Assembly (NCBI RefSeq): GCF_001870515.1
Contig: NZ_MDGT01000002.1
Coordinates: 310,066-374,065 of the forward strand
Source: Idiomarina sp. MD25a
Lineage (GTDB): Bacteria; Pseudomonadota; Gammaproteobacteria; Enterobacterales; Alteromonadaceae
Reading direction: 5' to 3'
Length of the DNA: 64,000 bases
Shown here one piece after another: positions 22,111 to 31,812 of this stretch (the stretch's first letter is position 1; each line of letters begins with the position of its first letter). The notes under the pieces are model-generated. The model saw only the letters and a program-made list of their open reading frames with translations. It did not search any database and had not been told where the DNA came from. Position numbers and translations under genes: made by a program.

Positions 22111-22312
22111 AGATTAACTTTGTGGTTGATTACATTGAAAGATTATACGCAATTCAAAACTAATTGGTTTGTATCAAGCTATCTGATTTTATTGAAATTG
22201 GCGAGTTGTTAAAAAATATGTATCAATTTGCCATACTCAGCCAGTTAAGTTGAAAAGCCCGAGAACCGCTGATAGGCTGAAATTTGTGTCAAAGATAATA
22301 AGAATTCATGAT

Positions 22313-22783
22313 ATGACAAGCTTTCAGGTGTGGCTGAAAAGCTATAACAAAGCGCTATTTGCGTTGTTATCTATATTAATATCTTGTTCGGCGATGGCGC
22401 AGAGCGAGGATACCGTCGTGCTCTCAGGGCCTACCGAAGAGGTCCGCGCGGGGTATTTCGTTGTCGAGCTACAGCAAGTCTCGCCAGCACTCCGGCCTTT
22501 GACGCTCCAAGTGAGTCATACCAAGTCCTTTTCGAGCGTATTGCAGACCGTGCCAGTCATGGGTGACTTCAACCAAGTGACCCTGACGGGGTTCGAATCG
22601 GGTCATTATTATATTCGCGCCGTGCATCAACAGCGCGTGGTCAGCCAAACGGCGATTGAGGTCACCGTTGAGCACTATCCGATTTGGCAGGCAGTGACAT
22701 TGTTCGCGTTGGGCGCACTGCTATTTTTGTTATTACTGCTGACATTAATCATGGGACATAAGAAGGCGGTGCGTCATGACTGA
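22313..22783 (+). CDS. Secreted, membrane-anchored protein of unknown function
   Basis: The longest frame begins at TTG 22250, but ATG 22313 is followed directly by a signal peptide (hydrophobic LFALLSILISCSAMA then Q), so the 156-aa form is preferred; no good ribosome site is visible. The mature part has beta-rich sequence of about 95 residues, a C-terminal TM helix (about VTLFALGALLFLLLLLTLI) and a short basic cytoplasmic tail, predicting a periplasmic domain anchored in the inner membrane. The 3' end overlaps the symporter gene by 8 bases, suggesting a subunit or partner of that transporter. I do not recognise the family. Confidence 0.7.
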   Translation: MTSFQVWLKSYNKALFALLSILISCSAMAQSEDTVVLSGPTEEVRAGYFVVELQQVSPALRPLTLQVSHTKSFSSVLQTVPVMGDFNQVTLTGFESGHYYIRAVHQQRVVSQTAIEVTVEHYPIWQAVTLFALGALLFLLLLLTLIMGHKKAVRHD

Positions 22784-24197
22784 GTTTGCGCTGGATACAC
22801 AGACTGCACTGTTTATTATCGTTGGCTTTGCCTTGGCATGGATTGCATTCGGTGTTTGGCTCGGGCGAAAAAACAAATCACATGAGGACTTCGCACTAGC
22901 GGGGCGGAATGTTGGCTTCGCGTTCGCAGCAGCTACCGCCATGGCGACATGGGTGACGAGTAATACAACCTTGGTGGCGCCTCAACTCACTTATCAGTTG
23001 GGTGTGTGGGGAATGGTCGGTTACTCGTTTGCCGCGCTGGGGTTATTGTTATTCGCGCCGATGGCCAAACGTATTAAACAATTGCTACCTCAAGGCTATA
23101 CGTCGGGCGATTTTATCCGGTTGCGCTATGGCCGTTTCGCTTGGGCGGTGTTTTTGGTTATTTCAGTCGTGTATGCGTTCGGCTGGCTGGTGAGCCTCGG
23201 TATGGCAGGTGGAATTCTGCTCGAAGCATTGAGTGGCTTAGATTACTACATAGGCATGACGATTATTTTAGCGATGTGTGTGGGCTACACGTTGTTTGGC
23301 GGCTTACGTGCAGTTATCGCTACCGACTTTATTCAAGCCTTAATTATTATCGTCGGTGTTGCTGTTGTAGCTTACTGGTTGATCGATAACGTGGGCTTAA
23401 CCAGTATACATACAGAGTTGAGTCAAGCGCACCCGCAGCTATTAGATCTGCTATTTCCCGCAGCCGTGATGTTTTTATTTAATAATATATTTTTCGGATT
23501 GGGTGAGATATTTCACTCAAACGTGTGGTGGTCGCGCGCCTTGTCCTTTCGTAAGGACGTTGCGTATAAAGCTTATTTAACCGGTGGTTTGTTGTGGTTA
23601 CCGATTCCAATTGTCACTGGATTTATCGCATTGGCTGCGCCTCAACTGGGTATATTTCCAGCATCGGCCGATATGATAGGTCCGGCGGTGGCTTCATCGG
23701 TGCTTGGCAAAACAGGTGCCATACTGGTGTTTATTGTGGTGTTCTCGGCGTTGGCATCTAGTCTTGACTCGTTACTGGCGGCCTCGTCTGACTTAGTCAC
23801 CCAGGATATCTATCATAAATTAATTAAGAAGACCGCATCTGATCAGCAACTGATGCGGTTTAATCGTTATTGCTTACTCGGCCTTGGCGTGATGACCTGG
23901 CTCTTGTGCTTACCGCGAATAGCGACCTTGGGCGCGCTATTAAACTTTGCGGGAGCTTTTGTGGCAAGCACCATTTGGCCCATTGTGATAGGACTTTACT
24001 GGCGACGCCTGCAAGGAACTTTCGCTGGAATAGCAATGGCGGCGGGTACGATAGTCGGGCTGGTCGCTTATTTTTGGATTGGATTTTACGTCGCAGCATT
24101 GGTTTCTTGTGCTGTATCAGGCCTGATTTGTGCAATCGGTATTGTATTCAACAAACGTCAGTTTTCGTGGCATGAATTGCAGGAGAATGGACAATGA
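22776..24197 (+). CDS. Sodium:solute symporter family transporter
   Basis: SSS-family protein of 473 aa with about 13 predicted TM helices. The N-terminal LAGRNVGFAFAAATAMATW and a later TSGDFIRLRYG are typical; the TLVAPQLTYQLGVWGMVGY segment is reminiscent of the urea/DUR3 branch, but the substrate cannot be fixed. Na+-coupled uptake is expected. It overlaps the gene before it by 8 bases and the 40-aa gene after it by 4 (ATGA), and two nitrogen-metabolism enzymes follow, so a nitrogenous substrate is a reasonable guess. Confidence 0.88.
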   Translation: MTEFALDTQTALFIIVGFALAWIAFGVWLGRKNKSHEDFALAGRNVGFAFAAATAMATWVTSNTTLVAPQLTYQLGVWGMVGYSFAALGLLLFAPMAKRIKQLLPQGYTSGDFIRLRYGRFAWAVFLVISVVYAFGWLVSLGMAGGILLEALSGLDYYIGMTIILAMCVGYTLFGGLRAVIATDFIQALIIIVGVAVVAYWLIDNVGLTSIHTELSQAHPQLLDLLFPAAVMFLFNNIFFGLGEIFHSNVWWSRALSFRKDVAYKAYLTGGLLWLPIPIVTGFIALAAPQLGIFPASADMIGPAVASSVLGKTGAILVFIVVFSALASSLDSLLAASSDLVTQDIYHKLIKKTASDQQLMRFNRYCLLGLGVMTWLLCLPRIATLGALLNFAGAFVASTIWPIVIGLYWRRLQGTFAGIAMAAGTIVGLVAYFWIGFYVAALVSCAVSGLICAIGIVFNKRQFSWHELQENGQ

Positions 24198-24316
24198 TTA
24201 TTTCAGAAACTGCATTTTATTTATTGGTCACGGGGGCGCTCATTCTCACAGTATTAGCGCCGGTTGTACTTACCGGTCTGTTTTTAAAAGATTATTTTTC
24301 TAAATCAATATGGTAA
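24194..24316 (+). CDS. 40-aa single-TM peptide coupled to the symporter
   Basis: A small open frame starting at the ATGA overlap with the symporter stop. The 40-residue product has one hydrophobic segment, about residues 7-30 (FYLLVTGALILTVLAPVVLT), and a short lysine-containing tail. Tight coupling upstream and the 4-base gap to the next gene argue that it is translated. Small TM peptides coded next to SSS transporters can be accessory subunits (YhdT with PanF is a comparable layout), but no homology was recognised here. It is below the usual size limit of gene finders. Confidence 0.7.
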   Translation: MIISETAFYLLVTGALILTVLAPVVLTGLFLKDYFSKSIW

Positions 24317-24320
24317 CTGT

Positions 24321-25388
24321 ATGAATATAAAGGATGTTTCCTTTGAGCGGGACAGACCTGACGTGTGCGGCGACGCACATCCCAAAGCATTGCTAAGAGC
24401 GATTCAAGAGGATGGTGATTACCTGTTGAAACTGGCTAATCAACACATTGTTTCGTCGGATCAGTTTACACAAAATGGTATGTTGCAGTTGTTTCGACTC
24501 GCAGCAAAGTACGAGGCCAATCCACGACGTTTTAGCACGTCGTTGCAGGGCAAAATCTTAATTTCTGCCTTTTATGAGCCGAGTACGCGCACGCGACTTT
24601 CATTTGAGAGTGCCTGGCACCGTTTAGGCGGCGATATCATGTCGATCACTGATCGCTCTACTACTGGGATTGCGAAAGGCGAATGCCTCGCCGATGTCGC
24701 TGAAATGTTTAATAACTACGGCGACTGTGTGGTGCTCCGAGATAACAACGAGTCCTCGTTAGAGGAAATGATCGATTCGTTGCGGATTCCGATCATTAAT
24801 GCGGGCAACGGGTGTGATGAGCATCCGACCCAGGCGTTAGCTGATCTATATGCCTTGTTTAAATGGAAGCCGGAACTCACCACGGCCGATGCTAAGGAGC
24901 ACGCAGTGAGTGTGGGCATTATTGGTGTTCCCAATAAAATGCGCACGGTGAGAAGTCTCATTAAAAGCTTGCTCAAATTTCCAGATGCGGTGAAAGAGTT
25001 AGTCATTATTCATGATGAATCGGTCACAGGGCAGTTGTTCGCCGAACAACAACGTGAGCAAATAGAACAAGCGGGCATTCGTGTGCGTACGTCTACGGAC
25101 CTTAACGCGACCTTACCGGATATCGATGTGGTCTACATTAATGCGATATCGTGGGAGGGTGAAACGTTTAACACTTATGGAAAATCATTCAGCCTTGATG
25201 CTCAGTCACCGCTTAAAAAAGATGCCATTATCTTGCACCCCCTGGCACGTGGACCTGAGCTAGCAACGGATCTCGATCATACGCCACATAACTGGTATTT
25301 CAGCCAAGCCCGGGGCGCGGTGTTTTTGAGGATGGCGTTACTCACGTGTATGGTTCAACGCGCCGAGCGCGTTATCGATGTCGTATAA
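24321..25388 (+). CDS. Aspartate carbamoyltransferase-like protein
   Basis: Aspartate/ornithine carbamoyltransferase family, 355 aa. The carbamoyl-phosphate motif STRTR is at residues 88-92 (FYEPSTRTRLSFE), the catalytic-loop Lys119 lies in KGECLAD, HPTQAL starts at 168, and the aspartate-type motif near 306 reads HPLAR instead of the usual HPLPR. It is about 45 residues longer than E. coli PyrB and no pyrI is nearby. It could be the house pyrB or a paralogue making a different carbamoyl product; its position 4 bases after the small membrane peptide and 17 before an asparagine-synthetase-like gene favours a dedicated role. Confidence 0.85.
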   Translation: MNIKDVSFERDRPDVCGDAHPKALLRAIQEDGDYLLKLANQHIVSSDQFTQNGMLQLFRLAAKYEANPRRFSTSLQGKILISAFYEPSTRTRLSFESAWHRLGGDIMSITDRSTTGIAKGECLADVAEMFNNYGDCVVLRDNNESSLEEMIDSLRIPIINAGNGCDEHPTQALADLYALFKWKPELTTADAKEHAVSVGIIGVPNKMRTVRSLIKSLLKFPDAVKELVIIHDESVTGQLFAEQQREQIEQAGIRVRTSTDLNATLPDIDVVYINAISWEGETFNTYGKSFSLDAQSPLKKDAIILHPLARGPELATDLDHTPHNWYFSQARGAVFLRMALLTCMVQRAERVIDVV

Positions 25389-25405
25389 CACAAGGAAAAA
25401 CGAAG

Positions 25406-27421
25406 ATGTGCGGAATTGCTGGAGTATTCAATCACCGCGTCAATGATTCTATCGACGCTCAGACCTTGGTCAATATGGCTGCGATAATGCATCATCGGGG
25501 GCCTGATGGATATGGCTATCACATACAGCCGGAGCAGGGGATTGGTTTCAGTCATGCTCGGTTATCAATTATTGACTTAAATGAAGAGCGTGCTAAGCAA
25601 CCTTTTTTGTCTGCTGATGAACGACTGATGCTAACTCACAACGGTGAGTTTTATGACTTTAAACGTATTCGAGCGGATTTGACGGCACGGGGTGCGCGCT
25701 TTCGTACCAAAAGTGACTCAGAAATCGTACTGCATCTATTTGAACGCTATGGCCTCGAAGCCACATTAAAGGAGCTACGCGGCGAGTTCGCATTTGGCTT
25801 GTATGATAAAGACGAAGATGCACTTTATTTAGTGCGCGACCGCTTCGGTATTAAACCGCTTTATTGGACCGAGACGGACGAAGGTGTCGTTTTTGGCTCG
25901 GAGTTAAAAGTCCTATTCGCTCATCCGCAAGTAAAGCGCGCGTTTTCAGCTGAGGGCTTATATCACCAACTGATTCAAGTGATGGTGCCCGGTTCAACGG
26001 CATTTGAGGGCGTACATCAAGTGCAGCCTGGGCAGGTGGTTAAAATTAGACGTGCTGATGGTAAGCTTAATATTGATACGTTGAAGTATTGGGACGTCAA
26101 TTTTCCTAACGAACACGACTATCCAGGTGACGAGGTCGATGAGACAGAATATGTCGAAGGCGTGCGTGAAAAGCTCTTAGAGGCGGTGCAACACCGAATG
26201 ACTGCTGACGTACCCGTAGGCTGTTATCTCTCCGGAGGCATCGATTCATGTTCGATTTTGGGCTTAGCATCGGCATCGACACAAACCTCAGTTAAAGCTT
26301 TTACTATTGGTTTTGACTCGGATGACTATGACGAGACACCGATTGCACGTGAAATGGCCGAGGCGACTGACGCTGATCATCATATTATGGCGCTTAAGGC
26401 GAACGATCTGTACGACCATTTTGTAAAAACGCTATGGCACACTGAACGGACTATCTACAACACGCTCGGTGTTGCCAAGTACCTGATGAGTCAGGAAGTG
26501 CATGAGGCGGGTTATAAAGTCGTTATGACGGGTGAGGGCTCGGATGAGCTATTTGCCGGTTATCCAGCATTTCGCAAGGATATGTTTTTGCATGGCCTCG
26601 ATCATCTACCCGAAATTGAGCGCCTCGAGTGGCAAAAGCTACTGGAGAAAAACAACCAGCTATTTAAGGGAGCCATGTTGGCGCGCGAGGAGTTTAGCAG
26701 CGACGCTTTGAATAAAAAAGTGGGCTTCACGCCGAGCTGTGTACAGCCTTGGCTCTCTTGCAGTAGCGTAGCTAAACCGCTTATTAACAGGGATTTACAG
26801 AAGCAATTAGAGGACTATGACCCGGGTCAGGCAATAGCGGATACGCTAGATGAAACTTATTTGGCCGGACGACACCCACTTGATCGCGCGCAGTACGTGT
26901 GGATTAAAACTATGTTGGAGGGTCAAATTCTGACTTGGGGCGGTGACCGCGTGGACATGGCGAATTCGATGGAAGCACGACCCGCGTTCCTTGATCACCA
27001 CTTGGCCGAATATGCGTTCACGGTACCGCCGCATTTACGTATTAAAGGCAATAAAGAGAAATACGTTTTGCGTGAAGCGATGAAAGGGCTGTTGCCCGAG
27101 ACGCTCTATAAACGCGAAAAATTTGCCTTTATGGCGCCGCCCGCGCATACCGATCCAGAAAAGTGGAAGGCAGTAGAGCGACTGGCGGAAGAATTTTTAA
27201 GTGAGCAAGCGGTAAAAGATGCAGGGCTGCTCGACTTTAACGAGGTCGAGGCAGTATTCGCGCGTCATAGTTCAAGTGATGTGACGCCGGAAGAGCAAGT
27301 ACAGCTCGATGCGGTGATCAACCACATGTTGGGCGTACAAGTGCTACACCACCACTTTGTCGCAACCGATGTTCCTGAGCAGGCAAAGCAACGCGCTCAA
27401 GAACTCGGCTGGACAGCCTAA
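25406..27421 (+). CDS. Asparagine synthetase (glutamine-hydrolysing)-like, long form
   Basis: Class II glutamine amidotransferase fused to an ATP-pyrophosphatase domain. The start is ATG 25406 with AAGGA upstream, which places the nucleophile Cys at position 2 (MCGIAG) after Met removal; the open frame extends further upstream without meaning. SHARLSIIDL and the synthetase P-loop SGGIDS (276-281) are intact. At 671 aa it is about 115 longer than E. coli AsnB, like the paralogues found in specialised pathways. It ends 4 bases from the convergent msrAB gene, and no terminator is obvious. Product: asparagine, or another amide made from an aspartate-like acceptor. Confidence 0.87.
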   Translation: MCGIAGVFNHRVNDSIDAQTLVNMAAIMHHRGPDGYGYHIQPEQGIGFSHARLSIIDLNEERAKQPFLSADERLMLTHNGEFYDFKRIRADLTARGARFRTKSDSEIVLHLFERYGLEATLKELRGEFAFGLYDKDEDALYLVRDRFGIKPLYWTETDEGVVFGSELKVLFAHPQVKRAFSAEGLYHQLIQVMVPGSTAFEGVHQVQPGQVVKIRRADGKLNIDTLKYWDVNFPNEHDYPGDEVDETEYVEGVREKLLEAVQHRMTADVPVGCYLSGGIDSCSILGLASASTQTSVKAFTIGFDSDDYDETPIAREMAEATDADHHIMALKANDLYDHFVKTLWHTERTIYNTLGVAKYLMSQEVHEAGYKVVMTGEGSDELFAGYPAFRKDMFLHGLDHLPEIERLEWQKLLEKNNQLFKGAMLAREEFSSDALNKKVGFTPSCVQPWLSCSSVAKPLINRDLQKQLEDYDPGQAIADTLDETYLAGRHPLDRAQYVWIKTMLEGQILTWGGDRVDMANSMEARPAFLDHHLAEYAFTVPPHLRIKGNKEKYVLREAMKGLLPETLYKREKFAFMAPPAHTDPEKWKAVERLAEEFLSEQAVKDAGLLDFNEVEAVFARHSSSDVTPEEQVQLDAVINHMLGVQVLHHHFVATDVPEQAKQRAQELGWTA

Positions 27422-27425
27422 GGGA

Positions 27426-28559
27426 CTATTGGTCGGCGGATACATAGTTAATGTATTCGCCGTAACCGCGCTCTTGCATCTCATCCAAAGGGATAAACTC
27501 TAGTGCAGCGGAGTTCATGCAGTAGCGTAAACCCGTTGGCTCGGGACCATCGCTGAATACGTGACCGATGTGGTTATTGCCATAGCGGCTGCGGATTTCT
27601 GTGCGCGTGTAAAACCAACTGTTATCCTCTTTTTCCACTACCGCATCGGATGTGATTGGTTGGGTAAAGCTGGGCCAACCAGTGCCTGATTTGTATTTAT
27701 CTGTAGATGAAAATAAGGGCTCACCACTAAGAATGTCAACGTAAATGCCGGGGCGCTTGTTATCCCAATAAGCGTTGTTGAATGGCTCCTCAGTACCATC
27801 CTCTTGTGTCACCTCATACTGAATGTCAGTTAACTTTTGCTGCAACACTTCATCACTCGGTTTGGTGTAACCTCTCCAGCGCGCTTGCGCTGCATCCGAT
27901 TGATTGACTCCATTGGGGTTTTGATTGGTGTACTGTTGATAATCAATACCTGAGGTGTCTCCCCAGTACTTCTCGATGAAATCATAGCGCCCGGAGTTAA
28001 ACGTATAGACTTTATAGCGGATAGGGTTTTTATCATAATAATTTTGATGATAGTCCTCAGCGGGATAGAAGGACTTGAACCGAGTTATCGGCACGACGAT
28101 CGGCTCTTTGAATGGACCTTTCTCGGCTAGGTACTGTTTCGTTTGCTGAGCAATTTGGCGTTGCTGCTCGGTGTGGTAAAAAATTTCTGGACGATATTGC
28201 TGACCTCGGTCAACAAATTGACCTTTGTTATCAGTCGGGTCAATGATACGCCAAAACTTCTGTGTCAGTGCGGCGTAGGAGACTATGTTCGGGTCGTAGT
28301 AAACTTGAACGCTCTCAGTGTGACCTGTTTGCCCGGCTGAAACCTGCTCGTAGCTGGGGTTAGCCTCGGATCCACCACTATAACCGGAGATCACCTCGCG
28401 AACACCGTTCATTTGTTCAAATGCTTCTTCAACACACCAAAAACACCCACCCGCAAAAGTTGCTATTTGCTCGTGAGATTGCTTTTCGTTGATTTGATTT
28501 TGTGCCATGCTCAAGTGAGTGAAAAATAAAGCGAGCATGGGAAAAATATATTTGGACAT
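27426..28559 (-). CDS. msrAB: Exported fused methionine sulfoxide reductase MsrA/MsrB
   Basis: The start is ATG 28559, preceded by a perfect AGGAGG; the open frame runs 11 codons further. A signal peptide (about 19 residues, cut near SMA-Q) precedes MsrA with GCFWC (nucleophile Cys39) and MsrB with the nucleophile Cys347 (RYCMN). It should repair both S- and R-methionine sulfoxide in the periplasm, like the PilB class. The MsrB part has GTGWPSF where many have GCGWPSF, so the usual resolving Cys is Thr293, and zinc cysteines are absent. It is divergent from the unknown 28608 gene, with 48 bases between starts. Confidence 0.92.
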
Positions 28560-28607
28560 AAAGCCTCCTGCATTTACCGCATCTAATAACAATATAGGTC
28601 AGTCGGG

Positions 28608-29600
28608 ATGAAAAAGATTTATGTGAATGGAATTTTTCTGCTCGTGTTATGGATAGTTGCTACGCCTATCCACGCGCAGACAACAACGGAAGATGCACAG
28701 CCACATGCTCAAGACGGTTCCTCAGACGGTTGGCTTGAGGGCTTTCGTAAAGGATTAGAGACGACCGTCGAATCGAGCGCTCGTTGGATAGATGGTTTTT
28801 TTGCTGACCGCGGAATGAGTAGCGATGAGCACGAAACTTATGGGCGTTTAACGGTAGCCCCTCAATGGTCGGGCTACCACAAATTTGAGGTCGATTCGCG
28901 GTTTCGAGCGCAATTCAAGCTTCCTCATGCCAAGAAAGATTTTTCTGCTTTTCTTGGTCAGGTCGATGAGGGCGAGTTTCTTGATCAACAAGATGTTGGT
29001 CGGCCCTCTGTTATTAATTCACCCACCACGGATGATGAGTGGCTTGTTGGTTTGGGGTTTAGCCGTCAAGTTAATGAAGCCCATCGATTAACCTACAGTA
29101 TTGGAATCCGCGGCGGTATTCGATTTGATACGTATGCCCGCGCACGTTACCGCGTTGATAGTATCCTTTCTGATGCAAGTTTAATGCGTTGGGAGTCATC
29201 GGTATTTTGGCGCGATAGCGATGGCTATGGCGTTGCGCAACGGGTCGATACGGAAACACAGTTAACCACAGACGTTGTTGCTAAGTGGTCTGCACTTGGA
29301 ACATTTGCACAAGAAACTCAGGGTGTACGTTGGAGCTCCTCAGCCATCGTTTACTTTTTGACAGATGTTGACCACGCATACGCTACCGAAATTTGGTCTG
29401 AAGGTGAAAATGAAGCGCCGGTTACGGTAACGGACTACGGTATCCGCGTACTTGATAGACGTAAGATTTATAAATCTTGGCTGTTAATGGAGACGTGGGT
29501 CGGTCACCATTGGCCTCGCGAAGAGCGCTTCGAAACGAGGCGAGGCCACTGGATGGTTGGTGTTGAATTTGAGCTCAGATTTGGTAATAAACGAGGCTAA
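28608..29600 (+). CDS. Exported protein of unknown function
   Basis: A 330-aa protein with a clear signal peptide (MKK, hydrophobic core, cut near IHA-Q). The mature N-terminus is acidic and polar; from about residue 80 the sequence alternates hydrophobic and polar residues with many aromatic positions and ends in a strand (GVEFELRFG), which would fit an outer-membrane beta-barrel or a periplasmic beta-protein. I do not recognise a family. The 3' end overlaps the convergent nuclease gene by 4 bases. Its start faces msrAB over 48 bases, so the two may respond to common envelope stress. Confidence 0.7.
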   Translation: MKKIYVNGIFLLVLWIVATPIHAQTTTEDAQPHAQDGSSDGWLEGFRKGLETTVESSARWIDGFFADRGMSSDEHETYGRLTVAPQWSGYHKFEVDSRFRAQFKLPHAKKDFSAFLGQVDEGEFLDQQDVGRPSVINSPTTDDEWLVGLGFSRQVNEAHRLTYSIGIRGGIRFDTYARARYRVDSILSDASLMRWESSVFWRDSDGYGVAQRVDTETQLTTDVVAKWSALGTFAQETQGVRWSSSAIVYFLTDVDHAYATEIWSEGENEAPVTVTDYGIRVLDRRKIYKSWLLMETWVGHHWPREERFETRRGHWMVGVEFELRFGNKRG

Positions 29601-31330
29601 AATTCAACATCGATGATGACAGGATCGTGATCCGATGAGCGATAGGGACCCGGCTCAAAGTATTCGGTGTCCTCATAACTGAACACTGTGGGCTCATCAC
29701 TGTTGTAGTGAATATGCTGAACATTTGTTATCGATTCAGCAAGCGTTTTATCAACAAATACGTGGTCGAGAGCGCCCGCCTGGCTATCGAAGACATAAGA
29801 GTAGTCTTCAGCCTCCGATACATTAGTAAAGCCCTGCGACTCGATATAACGTATTGGGTCCTCTTTAAAGTAGGCGTTAAAATCGCCAAGCAATACCGGC
29901 GCTGGAAAATCATTTTGTGCAATCCATTCAGTAAGCGCTTTAGCAGAGTCTACCCGCTGTTGATTCCAACAGTACTGCCCATCACGTTGATTGGCATTGG
30001 CGCCTTGCTCTGGACAGCCACCTTTAGATTTAAAGTGATTGACCACTACAGTGAATTGTTTGCTTGTTTGTTTATCTTCGAATACTTGGGCGAGAGGAGG
30101 GCGGCTACCAGAACGGAATGGCCCTTCTGTTAACGTGTGCGCGTGCCCTAAGGGCTTCACTCTGTTTCGATTATAAATTAATCCAACGGCTATTTGGTCA
30201 TCACCGAGACGTTGGGCTCGAGGCTCAGCGATTACATAGTGACTGCTTTGCTCGCTATTGAGCTCGTTGACTAACTGAACAATCGCACTGTCAGGGCCGT
30301 AGCCGTCGTTTTCAACTTCCATTAAACCAAATACGTCAGCGTCAATTTCGACCAGTGCCGATAAGATTTTAGTTTGCTGGCGCTGGTAGGCGTCGAAGCT
30401 TTGAGCCCCGCGTTCGGTTGGGAAGCCGTTCTGTTCGCCATTGCCATTGAAGAGGTTAAGCACATTAAAACTGGAAATGCGTAAGTGGTCACCTTTTTCG
30501 TTAGGTGACTCGGGTTCATCAATGTGTTTAGCTACAATAGCCTCAGTAGGTTGGATACGCGCTCTGCCGCGAAACTCCGTTAGTATACCGACGATAGGTT
30601 CCAGTGTCGTGCCACTGCGTACGGAGTTTTGTGCCTTGCTGGTTAATGCACTGAACGGTAGAGTCGACGGCTCAATGTCACTGTTATCATCGACTTGCAC
30701 TCGGTTTAACTGGTTACGTTGCATTTGTTCACGCGCCGATTTACCAGGCTCAACAATTTGGGAGGGGGTAAATAGGCGGCCACTGGAAACGTCAAAATAT
30801 CCATGTCGTGGCAGTTGATAATGACCGGAAATCGTTAAGTCATGACCATCAGATGCTACTAAAGTGACCCGCATATTTTCATACTGTTCGCGCTGCTCAT
30901 TGCTTTTGAAAGGCAGTCGAACAGTGACGGGCGCGGGCATAGGACGCGCTTGCGGACATGATTGCATAGCACTGACGTCAACTAAACGAGTCTGTTCGTT
31001 GACTTCAGCAACACGCCCTGTAACAACCACAAGGTCACCTTCCGTAAATGTTTGTTCATTTGCGACACTCACGAAGATACCTTCGGAACTGAGGGGATCA
31101 TCATCGGGTTCATTGCTTTGTAGGAAAAAACCAGCCAGTTCATTGTCGGCTGTCCAGTTTGCCGTCACCGTTCCTGCGGTGGTCACCTCCTGATCAAGCA
31201 AAGGAGATTGCCAAGCGTGGCCTTGAATCACTGAAATCGGTGTAATACTCGCTTGCTCTTCACCGCATTGTTGTGCGAAAGCGGTTCCTGTACTAAGCAA
31301 CAGTGCGGTAGCAATTAAGAGTTTCTTCAT
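29597..31330 (-). CDS. ExeM/NucH-like extracellular endonuclease
   Basis: Secreted DNase-like protein of 577 aa. A signal peptide (MKKLLIATALLLSTGTAFA) is followed by an OB-fold-like region (about residues 40-120), and the C-terminal half is an endonuclease/exonuclease/phosphatase domain: SFNVLNLFNG, LMEVENDGYG, NHFKSKGG, LLGDFNAY and SSDHDPVI, including the catalytic His/Asp/Asn residues. Characterised relatives degrade extracellular DNA for biofilm control or phosphate gain. Its start codon overlaps the stop of the upstream MarR gene by 4 bases. There is no C-terminal sorting signal that I can recognise. Confidence 0.88.
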   Translation of the reverse strand: MKKLLIATALLLSTGTAFAQQCGEEQASITPISVIQGHAWQSPLLDQEVTTAGTVTANWTADNELAGFFLQSNEPDDDPLSSEGIFVSVANEQTFTEGDLVVVTGRVAEVNEQTRLVDVSAMQSCPQARPMPAPVTVRLPFKSNEQREQYENMRVTLVASDGHDLTISGHYQLPRHGYFDVSSGRLFTPSQIVEPGKSAREQMQRNQLNRVQVDDNSDIEPSTLPFSALTSKAQNSVRSGTTLEPIVGILTEFRGRARIQPTEAIVAKHIDEPESPNEKGDHLRISSFNVLNLFNGNGEQNGFPTERGAQSFDAYQRQQTKILSALVEIDADVFGLMEVENDGYGPDSAIVQLVNELNSEQSSHYVIAEPRAQRLGDDQIAVGLIYNRNRVKPLGHAHTLTEGPFRSGSRPPLAQVFEDKQTSKQFTVVVNHFKSKGGCPEQGANANQRDGQYCWNQQRVDSAKALTEWIAQNDFPAPVLLGDFNAYFKEDPIRYIESQGFTNVSEAEDYSYVFDSQAGALDHVFVDKTLAESITNVQHIHYNSDEPTVFSYEDTEYFEPGPYRSSDHDPVIIDVEF

Positions 31331-31812
31331 GAGTGCTTGTCCATTTTATGATAACTTCCTACCTCTAAGACTGGAGCTGCATCGAGCCGCTCGGCATCCA
31401 TCATCGTGGCAATGCGTTGCATAGATGACAGCAGTAGCGATTGCTCCCATTCATCAAGACCTTGAAATTTTTCGATAAAGTCTTCTTGTAGAGGCTGAGG
31501 CGCTTGGGCCAGTAAAGACTGGCCTTGTTCGGTGATGTACATCAGAACACGCCGTTTATCGGTGTTACTACGTCTACGATAGATTAAACCACGGTGTTCC
31601 ATGCGTTCGATGACATTTGACACGGTGGCTGGGCTTAAAGTGATGTTTTGAGCAACTTCACTGGCGGTAATGCCATCACGAGCCACAATCTCTCGAAGTA
31701 TCAGGAGTTGTGGAGCTGTTAATCCAGAGTATTTATTAAGTTGTTTGGAGTGAAGATCAATGGCGCGAATGACTTTACGTAACGCAAGTAAAAGTTCTTC
31801 ATACTTTTCCAT
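31327..31812 (-). CDS. MarR family transcriptional regulator
   Basis: Winged-helix regulator of 161 aa. The helix-turn-helix lies around GITASEVAQNITLSPATVSNVIERME and the wing at YRRRSNTDKRRVLMYIT, typical of MarR. It overlaps the nuclease gene by 4 bases (translational coupling), so the regulator and the nuclease are likely one unit and the regulator may control that unit. The ligand is unknown. Confidence 0.9.
   Translation of the reverse strand: MEKYEELLLALRKVIRAIDLHSKQLNKYSGLTAPQLLILREIVARDGITASEVAQNITLSPATVSNVIERMEHRGLIYRRRSNTDKRRVLMYITEQGQSLLAQAPQPLQEDFIEKFQGLDEWEQSLLLSSMQRIATMMDAERLDAAPVLEVGSYHKMDKHS

Follow-up and report, generated by a model that had tools for sequence, protein, structure and literature searches.

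A five-gene Idiomarina operon predicted to make and recapture a carbamoylated, amidated amino-acid osmolyte

A run of five genes in Idiomarina sp. MD25a very probably makes a carbamoylated, amidated amino-acid osmolyte. The likely product is carbamoylated, amidated glutamine (CGA), a reading to which we assign a probability of roughly 0.7. The run occupies positions 22313..27421 on the + strand of a 64,000-nucleotide stretch of contig NZ_MDGT01000002.1 (positions 310,066 to 374,065), here called the window, from an assembly of 2.68 Mb (GCF_001870515.1). A preliminary description of the window had reported five same-strand genes that overlap by 8 and 4 bases at two junctions and are spaced by 4 and 17 at the other two, all of which was verified, and had read them as a coupled uptake and aspartate-modifying system, perhaps for a carbamoyl or amide compound. 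The coupled system and the carbamoyl/amide chemistry stand, and the guess at the compound was a good one, as the evidence points to glutamine that is carbamoylated and amidated; aspartate as the substrate is not supported.

The gene run and its two enzymes

The first gene (22313..22783, 156 aa) encodes an exported, membrane-anchored protein, probably an accessory subunit of the symporter encoded by the second (22776..24197, 473 aa). This symporter belongs to the SSS family (PF00474, 107.9 bits), resembles DUR3, and is predicted to take up or recapture a ureido (carbamoyl) solute. The third gene (24194..24316) encodes a single-pass membrane peptide of 40 aa, probably a small symporter subunit; like the product of the first gene, it matches no Pfam or NCBIfam family above cut-off. 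The fourth (24321..25388, 355 aa) encodes a carbamoyltransferase that resembles aspartate carbamoyltransferase (ATCase), belongs to a distinct family (PF02729, 135.8 bits; PF00185, 44.4 bits), and is predicted to be a glutamine N-carbamoyltransferase. The product of the fifth (25406..27421, 671 aa) is an AsnB-like glutamine-dependent amidotransferase (PF00733, 306.5 bits, plus a glutamine amidotransferase domain) that is predicted to amidate the alpha-carboxyl group of N-carbamoylglutamine.

Conservation of the run was followed in a main set of loci, the best 80 of 183 confirmed relatives in one scan of genome contigs, and in a set of 115 that adds 35 loci from further scans (35 Idiomarinaceae, 80 outside). 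The symporter, carbamoyltransferase and AsnB-like genes are co-located in 80/80 fetched loci of the main set, which bears out the proposed coupling of transport and enzymes and rejects chance clustering. Together, the genes make up a distinct module for synthesis and uptake. It occurs in alpha-, beta- and gammaproteobacteria and in Cyanobium, with records from Idiomarina, Pseudidiomarina, Aliidiomarina, Kangiella, Alteromonas, Pseudoalteromonas, Bowmanella, Pleionea, Kordiimonas, Nitrosomonas halophila and two Cyanobium; we take these organisms to be mostly marine or saline. The carbamoyltransferase is present in 19/19 genomes of the window's own genus, and the conservation among relatives that the preliminary description had proposed to check is thus evident at the level of both locus and genus.

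Among 369 gammaproteobacterial genomes, the carbamoyltransferase is found in 23, the window's own included. With a profile of the operon AsnB, strong matches come from these same 23 genomes, at 1030-1301 bits where the gene is full-length or nearly so (it is split or partial in G033, G241 and G337), and the best score outside them is 538 bits. No genome among the 369 has either family without the other; because the genomes are related, a formal probability for this co-occurrence would be meaningless. The carbamoyltransferase shows no match to plasmids at E <= 1e-60. In one genome, G376 (L166), its gene is split over two frames, either as a pseudogene or through sequencing error. In a tree of AsnB sequences, the operon members form one clade (99/99; 20 rows, with 8 other rows, some long-branched). 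The Nitrosomonas halophila sequence (L057) joins that of Alteromonas (100/100), and because of this grouping, the tree suggests that this halophilic ammonia oxidizer acquired the operon horizontally from a marine gammaproteobacterium.

The residues of the carbamoyltransferase do not support aspartate as its substrate. In an alignment of 115 rows (the window and 114 loci, with the frameshifted G376 gene excluded) referenced to E. coli MG1655 PyrB, the carbamoyl-phosphate site (S52-T-R-T55, K84, R105, H134 and Q137) and R167 are kept in 115/115 rows. Position S80 is Gly in all rows, and the genome's own PyrB also lacks Ser there. R229 is replaced by A/S/T, Q231 by A/S/T/V, and P268 by A, each in 115/115 rows. 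We take R229 and Q231 of E. coli ATCase to be the residues that bind the aspartate side chain, and the genome's own PyrB retains this Arg and Gln. Asn274 and Trp278 stand in place of the specificity loop and are invariant in 116/116 rows, and the HPLAR motif that had first drawn attention to the protein corresponds to residues 306-310. The enzyme has the attributes of the carbamoyl-phosphate-dependent transcarbamylase superfamily and reaches neither PyrB equivalog model (NF002032, 194.7 against a cut-off of 263; TIGR00670, 194.2 against 236.95). It is 32% identical to the genome's own PyrB; identity inside the family is 56-99%, the counterpart in Idiomarina fontislapidosi being 99% identical.

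The AsnB-like enzyme was aligned in 111 rows with E. coli MG1655 AsnB as reference, numbered from Cys1. C1, R49, N74, G75, E76, D98 and the PP-loop SGG.DS are kept in 111/111 rows. Arg324, presumably the aspartate-binding Arg of E. coli AsnB, is Gly or Ala in all 111. In the available part of a study of a Listeria AsnB, the argument for a non-aspartate substrate is that the Asp and Arg which bind aspartate have been lost (PMC8554201). PF00733 has three matches in the Idiomarina genome; the two besides the operon gene are weak (23.7 and 21.7 bits) and resemble MnmA and QueC by eye, and the search yields no second asnB in the genome. The genome does encode an AsnA-type asparagine synthetase, and a search of it for GatB gave no match. 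Another AsnB-like gene, at locus L220, has neighbors among which no carbamoyltransferase is apparent by eye.

With pyrB, argF and asnA of its own elsewhere, the genome needs neither operon enzyme for pyrimidines or asparagine. Assignments of the two genes to housekeeping pyrimidine synthesis (a separate pyrB and argF exist) and housekeeping asparagine synthesis (asnA supplies asparagine) were both rejected. The preliminary description had already doubted that these were housekeeping copies; the second pyrB it proposed to look for is there, whereas in place of a standard second asnB, there is the AsnA-type synthetase. The same evidence bears on the idea that the run makes carbamoylaspartate or asparagine and couples this to uptake. 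The top database names of the two enzymes are indeed ATCase and asparagine synthase, and the AsnB-like protein passes TIGR01536, the asparagine synthase model (459.5 against 267.1). Against this, both general ATCase equivalog cut-offs are missed, every aligned row of both enzymes has lost the residues for the aspartate side chain, and AsnA, which can make asparagine, and PyrB are encoded elsewhere. An aspartate-modifying system is therefore very improbable.

CGA and the phototrophic carriers

CGA is an osmolyte of the purple bacterium Ectothiorhodospira marismortui and was isolated in 1991, according to the portions available of PMC1224877 and PMC3857566. The accessible text of the openly licensed papers searched names no genes for its biosynthesis. 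Two genomes, G106 and G322, carry the carbamoyltransferase together with photosynthetic reaction-centre genes. The family of G322 is fixed by G382, a genome of the same family, in which the first 20 kb of contig 2 is 100% identical to a plasmid of Thioalkalivibrio sp. K90mix. The genus to which G322 belongs, g110, has reaction-centre genes in 10/10 genomes. Because g110 is phototrophic throughout and lies within the K90mix family, we infer that it is Ectothiorhodospira. Genes for CGA biosynthesis are expected in the producing genus, and in this inferred Ectothiorhodospira the carbamoyltransferase and AsnB genes are adjacent in 10/10 genomes.

In the family as a whole, the carbamoyltransferase is found in 41/47 genomes and AsnB in 42/47, with every miss in a genome of less than 81% completeness; each enzyme is present in 38/38 near-complete genomes. 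The gene betA is absent from G322, G371 and G373, is represented by a sub-threshold piece in G106, and is present in six g110 genomes. In the part of PMC7824335 at hand, absence of betA is a trait of E. mobilis and E. marismortui, and also of E. magna, which has other losses as well. In G412 (L177), from another phototrophic genus, the carbamoyltransferase and AsnB genes lie apart on the same contig; a peptide-like match is seen upstream, and there is no symporter.

The Idiomarinaceae offer a second setting. The genome of Pseudidiomarina terrestris is described, in the available text of PMC10893183, as yielding no genes for ectoine or betaine synthesis, and its osmoadaptation strategy as not deducible. 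Its locus in our set (L023) has all five genes.

Transport, recycling and regulation

The first and third genes accompany the symporter, as expected from the earlier proposal that they are transporter subunits. Both are present in 94/98 symporter-bearing loci of the 115-locus set. The anchor protein occurs in 96/98 loci with a symporter, the two exceptions being short contigs, and in 0/17 without one; the 40-aa peptide, by profile search, occurs in 96/98 and 1/17, and both symporter-bearing exceptions are Cyanobium. The two proteins are thus probable accessory subunits of the symporter. An AlphaFold2 model of the anchor protein (pLDDT 82.9) has an N-terminal helix, an FN3-like beta sandwich and a C-terminal transmembrane helix, and FN3-type domains are its best matches in Foldseek (E 3.5e-4). 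The best solved relatives of the symporter are DUR3 urea symporters (9.5e-36), and a control search with E. coli PutP returned no DUR3 among its 16 matches at E <= 0.001. CGA carries a ureido group, and a DUR3-like carrier therefore fits. The two Cyanobium loci (L084, L085) place the operon in a second phylum; their symporter has only 46% identity, and the 40-aa peptide was not detected at either.

Neighboring genes were counted by six-frame profile search over the 115 loci. A hydantoinase/carbamoylase-type hydrolase of the M20 kind lies at 72/80 loci outside Idiomarinaceae, and short contigs account for four of the eight loci that lack it. Its four arrangements, upstream or downstream and on either strand, account for 37, 21, 11 and 3 loci; the linkage has therefore outlived rearrangement. 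The three of these 72 hydrolases that were scanned pass TIGR01879 (348-367 against a cut-off of 204), and their second-best model is the N-carbamyl-L-glutamate amidohydrolase ErtE (351-385 bits, with the cut-off of 520 not reached). For the one hydrolase searched, the best solved relative is an N-carbamoyl-L-amino acid hydrolase (9.4e-77). At 36/115 loci there is a cysteine amidohydrolase of the isochorismatase kind; its nearest models are biuret and ureidoacrylate amidohydrolases, far under cut-off. All ten g110 loci are ordered hydrolase, cysteine amidohydrolase, carbamoyltransferase and AsnB, with a MarR gene upstream in nine.

Hydrolases predicted to degrade a carbamoyl amino acid would also suit a catabolic or nitrogen-storage system in which an imported ureido compound is split by the carbamoyltransferase working in reverse, yielding carbamoyl phosphate and ATP, with the AsnB-like enzyme in an unrelated role. 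Catabolic carbamoyltransferases of the same fold exist. However, an ATP-using amidotransferase accompanies the carbamoyltransferase in all 23 carrier genomes, which fits synthesis, and the enzyme pair persists in the 17/115 loci from which the symporter module is absent. We consider such a catabolic system quite unlikely, and nitrogen storage may instead be a side role of the solute. The flanks also bear on the idea that the pair builds part of a larger product, such as a capped peptide, a modified cell-wall residue or a secreted metabolite. AsnB-like enzymes with such changes can amidate peptidoglycan, as the available part of PMC8554201 describes, or peptides. No peptide synthetase, ligase or export gene is recurrent among the flanking families of the loci examined (open reading frames of at least 70 aa within about 6 kb); an importer, a hydrolase and a salt-type regulator recur instead, and a larger product is highly improbable.

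The candidate regulator in the window is a MarR-type protein, probably of the CosR/EctR kind (31327..31812, - strand), 3.9 kb downstream of the operon. It scores 240.9 bits against a profile of the MarR genes from other loci, which are found at 34/115 loci in addition to the window. At fourteen of these loci and in the window, the protein shares 40-54% identity with a MarR of Vibrio nigripulchritudo whose gene lies next to ectABC and proVWX; the window protein is 50% identical to this Vibrio MarR and 42% identical to a Leisingera MarR divergent from ectABC-ask. In the part of PMC7876524 available, the MarR proteins CosR and EctR1 are repressors of ectoine genes at low salinity. That the window MarR controls the operon is a guess, given the 3.9 kb and the genes between them. 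Two genes on the - strand downstream of the operon were named by eye, a secreted MsrA-MsrB-like fusion protein 3' of it (27426-28592) and a large secreted nuclease-like protein thereafter (29597-31330).

A putative promoter, TTGAAA-17-TAGGCT, lies upstream of the operon (22250..22278, + strand). The pattern TTG(A/C)AA-17-TAG(C/G)CT is found in 27/27 Idiomarinaceae upstream regions (the window and 26 of the 33 loci L007-L039), with a constant spacer, and a stricter form of it occurs once in the 64-kb window. A sigma-70 consensus scan of the window did not list this site, and the counts of the promoter and terminator scan were near the shuffled mean. The -10 box, TAGGCT in the window and TAGCCT in most relatives, departs from TATAAT. 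A GC-rich -10 box is a feature of the osmotically controlled proU promoter, and this likeness may hint at osmotic control of the operon.

Proposed mechanism and known systems

Several observations weigh against CGA as the product, the TIGR01536 match among them. It is the known compound, rather than the active site, that suggests glutamine as the acceptor. Only one organism has been reported to contain CGA, as a minor solute, and Raman spectra are described without it (PMC3857566, in the portion available); the presence of the pair in 38/38 near-complete genomes of the family would then mean either that many producers have been overlooked or that the product differs in some of them. The ten g110 genomes are named Ectothiorhodospira by inference. 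The symporter module is missing from the inferred Ectothiorhodospira loci and is therefore dispensable for synthesis. The hydrolase is absent at 35/35 Idiomarinaceae loci, where the search covered the loci themselves, and the best NCBIfam match of the scanned hydrolases is the PRK09290.1-5 subfamily, named allantoate amidohydrolase. The other twenty MarR genes, from Ectothiorhodospiraceae and others, are only 25-32% identical to the Vibrio protein.

A rival reading is an osmolyte made by the same two steps from another amino acid, such as glutamate, asparagine or alanine. The residue changes in the carbamoyltransferase exclude only the holding of a side chain by R229 and Q231, and the taxa of the family range far wider than the sole known CGA producer. 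Nevertheless, CGA is the nearest known compound of such make-up in a carrier genus, the invariance of N274 and W278 argues for one substrate family-wide, and the second-best model of the cluster hydrolase acts on N-carbamyl-L-glutamate. A different amino acid is thus unlikely, and CGA is the product we propose.

Our analysis allows a mechanism to be outlined. The ATCase-like enzyme would transfer the carbamoyl group of carbamoyl phosphate to the alpha-amino group of glutamine; it would still hold the phosphate and the alpha-carboxylate, without the residues for the side-chain carboxylate of aspartate. The AsnB-like enzyme would then use ATP to activate the alpha-carboxyl group and ammonia drawn from a second glutamine to amidate it; the resulting solute would be uncharged. 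Leaked or external CGA would be recaptured by the DUR3-like Na+ symporter together with the FN3-like anchored protein and the 40-aa peptide. In most other lineages, the N-carbamoyl-amino-acid hydrolase and, in some, the cysteine amidohydrolase would recycle the solute when salt falls, and a CosR/EctR-type MarR protein could plausibly exert salt control.

Somewhat more probably than otherwise, CGA serves widely as a compatible solute in marine and haloalkaliphilic bacteria of two phyla. In this view, a new glutamine N-carbamoyltransferase and an AsnB relative that amidates the alpha-carboxyl group make it, a DUR3-like ureido-solute symporter of three parts retrieves it, dedicated hydrolases recycle it, and the genes have spread horizontally, for example to Nitrosomonas halophila. 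CGA was isolated in 1991, and the literature searched describes no biosynthesis for it; the run would supply candidate genes, and two of them would suffice for a direct test of the pathway in laboratory E. coli. If true, this would offer an answer for the salt survival of Idiomarinaceae. Many marine annotations of "aspartate carbamoyltransferase" and "asparagine synthase" are probably misnamed.

Among known systems, the nearest in logic is that of N-acetylglutaminylglutamine amide (NAGGN), encoded by asnO-ngg. As the available part of PMC8070244 describes it, the osmolyte there is a capped dipeptide whose terminal glutamine is amidated by AsnO. Both systems would thus have an AsnB-like enzyme that amidates the alpha-carboxyl group of a glutamine-derived osmolyte and a partner that caps the amino end, and the Pseudomonas cluster also contains a MarR regulator and a hydrolase (PMC8070244, same portion). 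They differ in the cap, a carbamoyl group predicted to be added by an ATCase-like enzyme, rather than an acetyltransferase/dipeptide synthase product. The NAGGN pathway itself was rejected for the Idiomarina run; the AsnO model TIGR03104 is not reached (312.3 against a cut-off of 570.1), and there is no acetyltransferase among the five genes.

The individual proteins show the same mixture of likeness and difference. The carbamoyltransferase shares with PyrB the fold, the carbamoyl-phosphate site, K84, R105, H134, Q137 and R167, and differs in the replacement of R229, Q231 and P268, in its 32% identity, and in falling under the equivalog cut-offs. The AsnB-like enzyme has the N-terminal glutaminase with Cys1, the PP-loop and the GEGSDE motif of E. 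coli AsnB, but it is about 115 residues longer, has Gly or Ala at Arg324, and belongs to a separate clade. The symporter shares the SSS family with DUR3, its closest solved relative, but has 473 aa against chains of 673-773 aa or longer listed entries, and the genes for the FN3-like anchored protein and the 40-aa peptide lie beside its own. With CGA of Ectothiorhodospira, the run shares its predicted product and both enzyme genes, found in 10/10 genomes of the inferred genus; there, the compound is known, and its genes are unnamed in the available text of the literature found.

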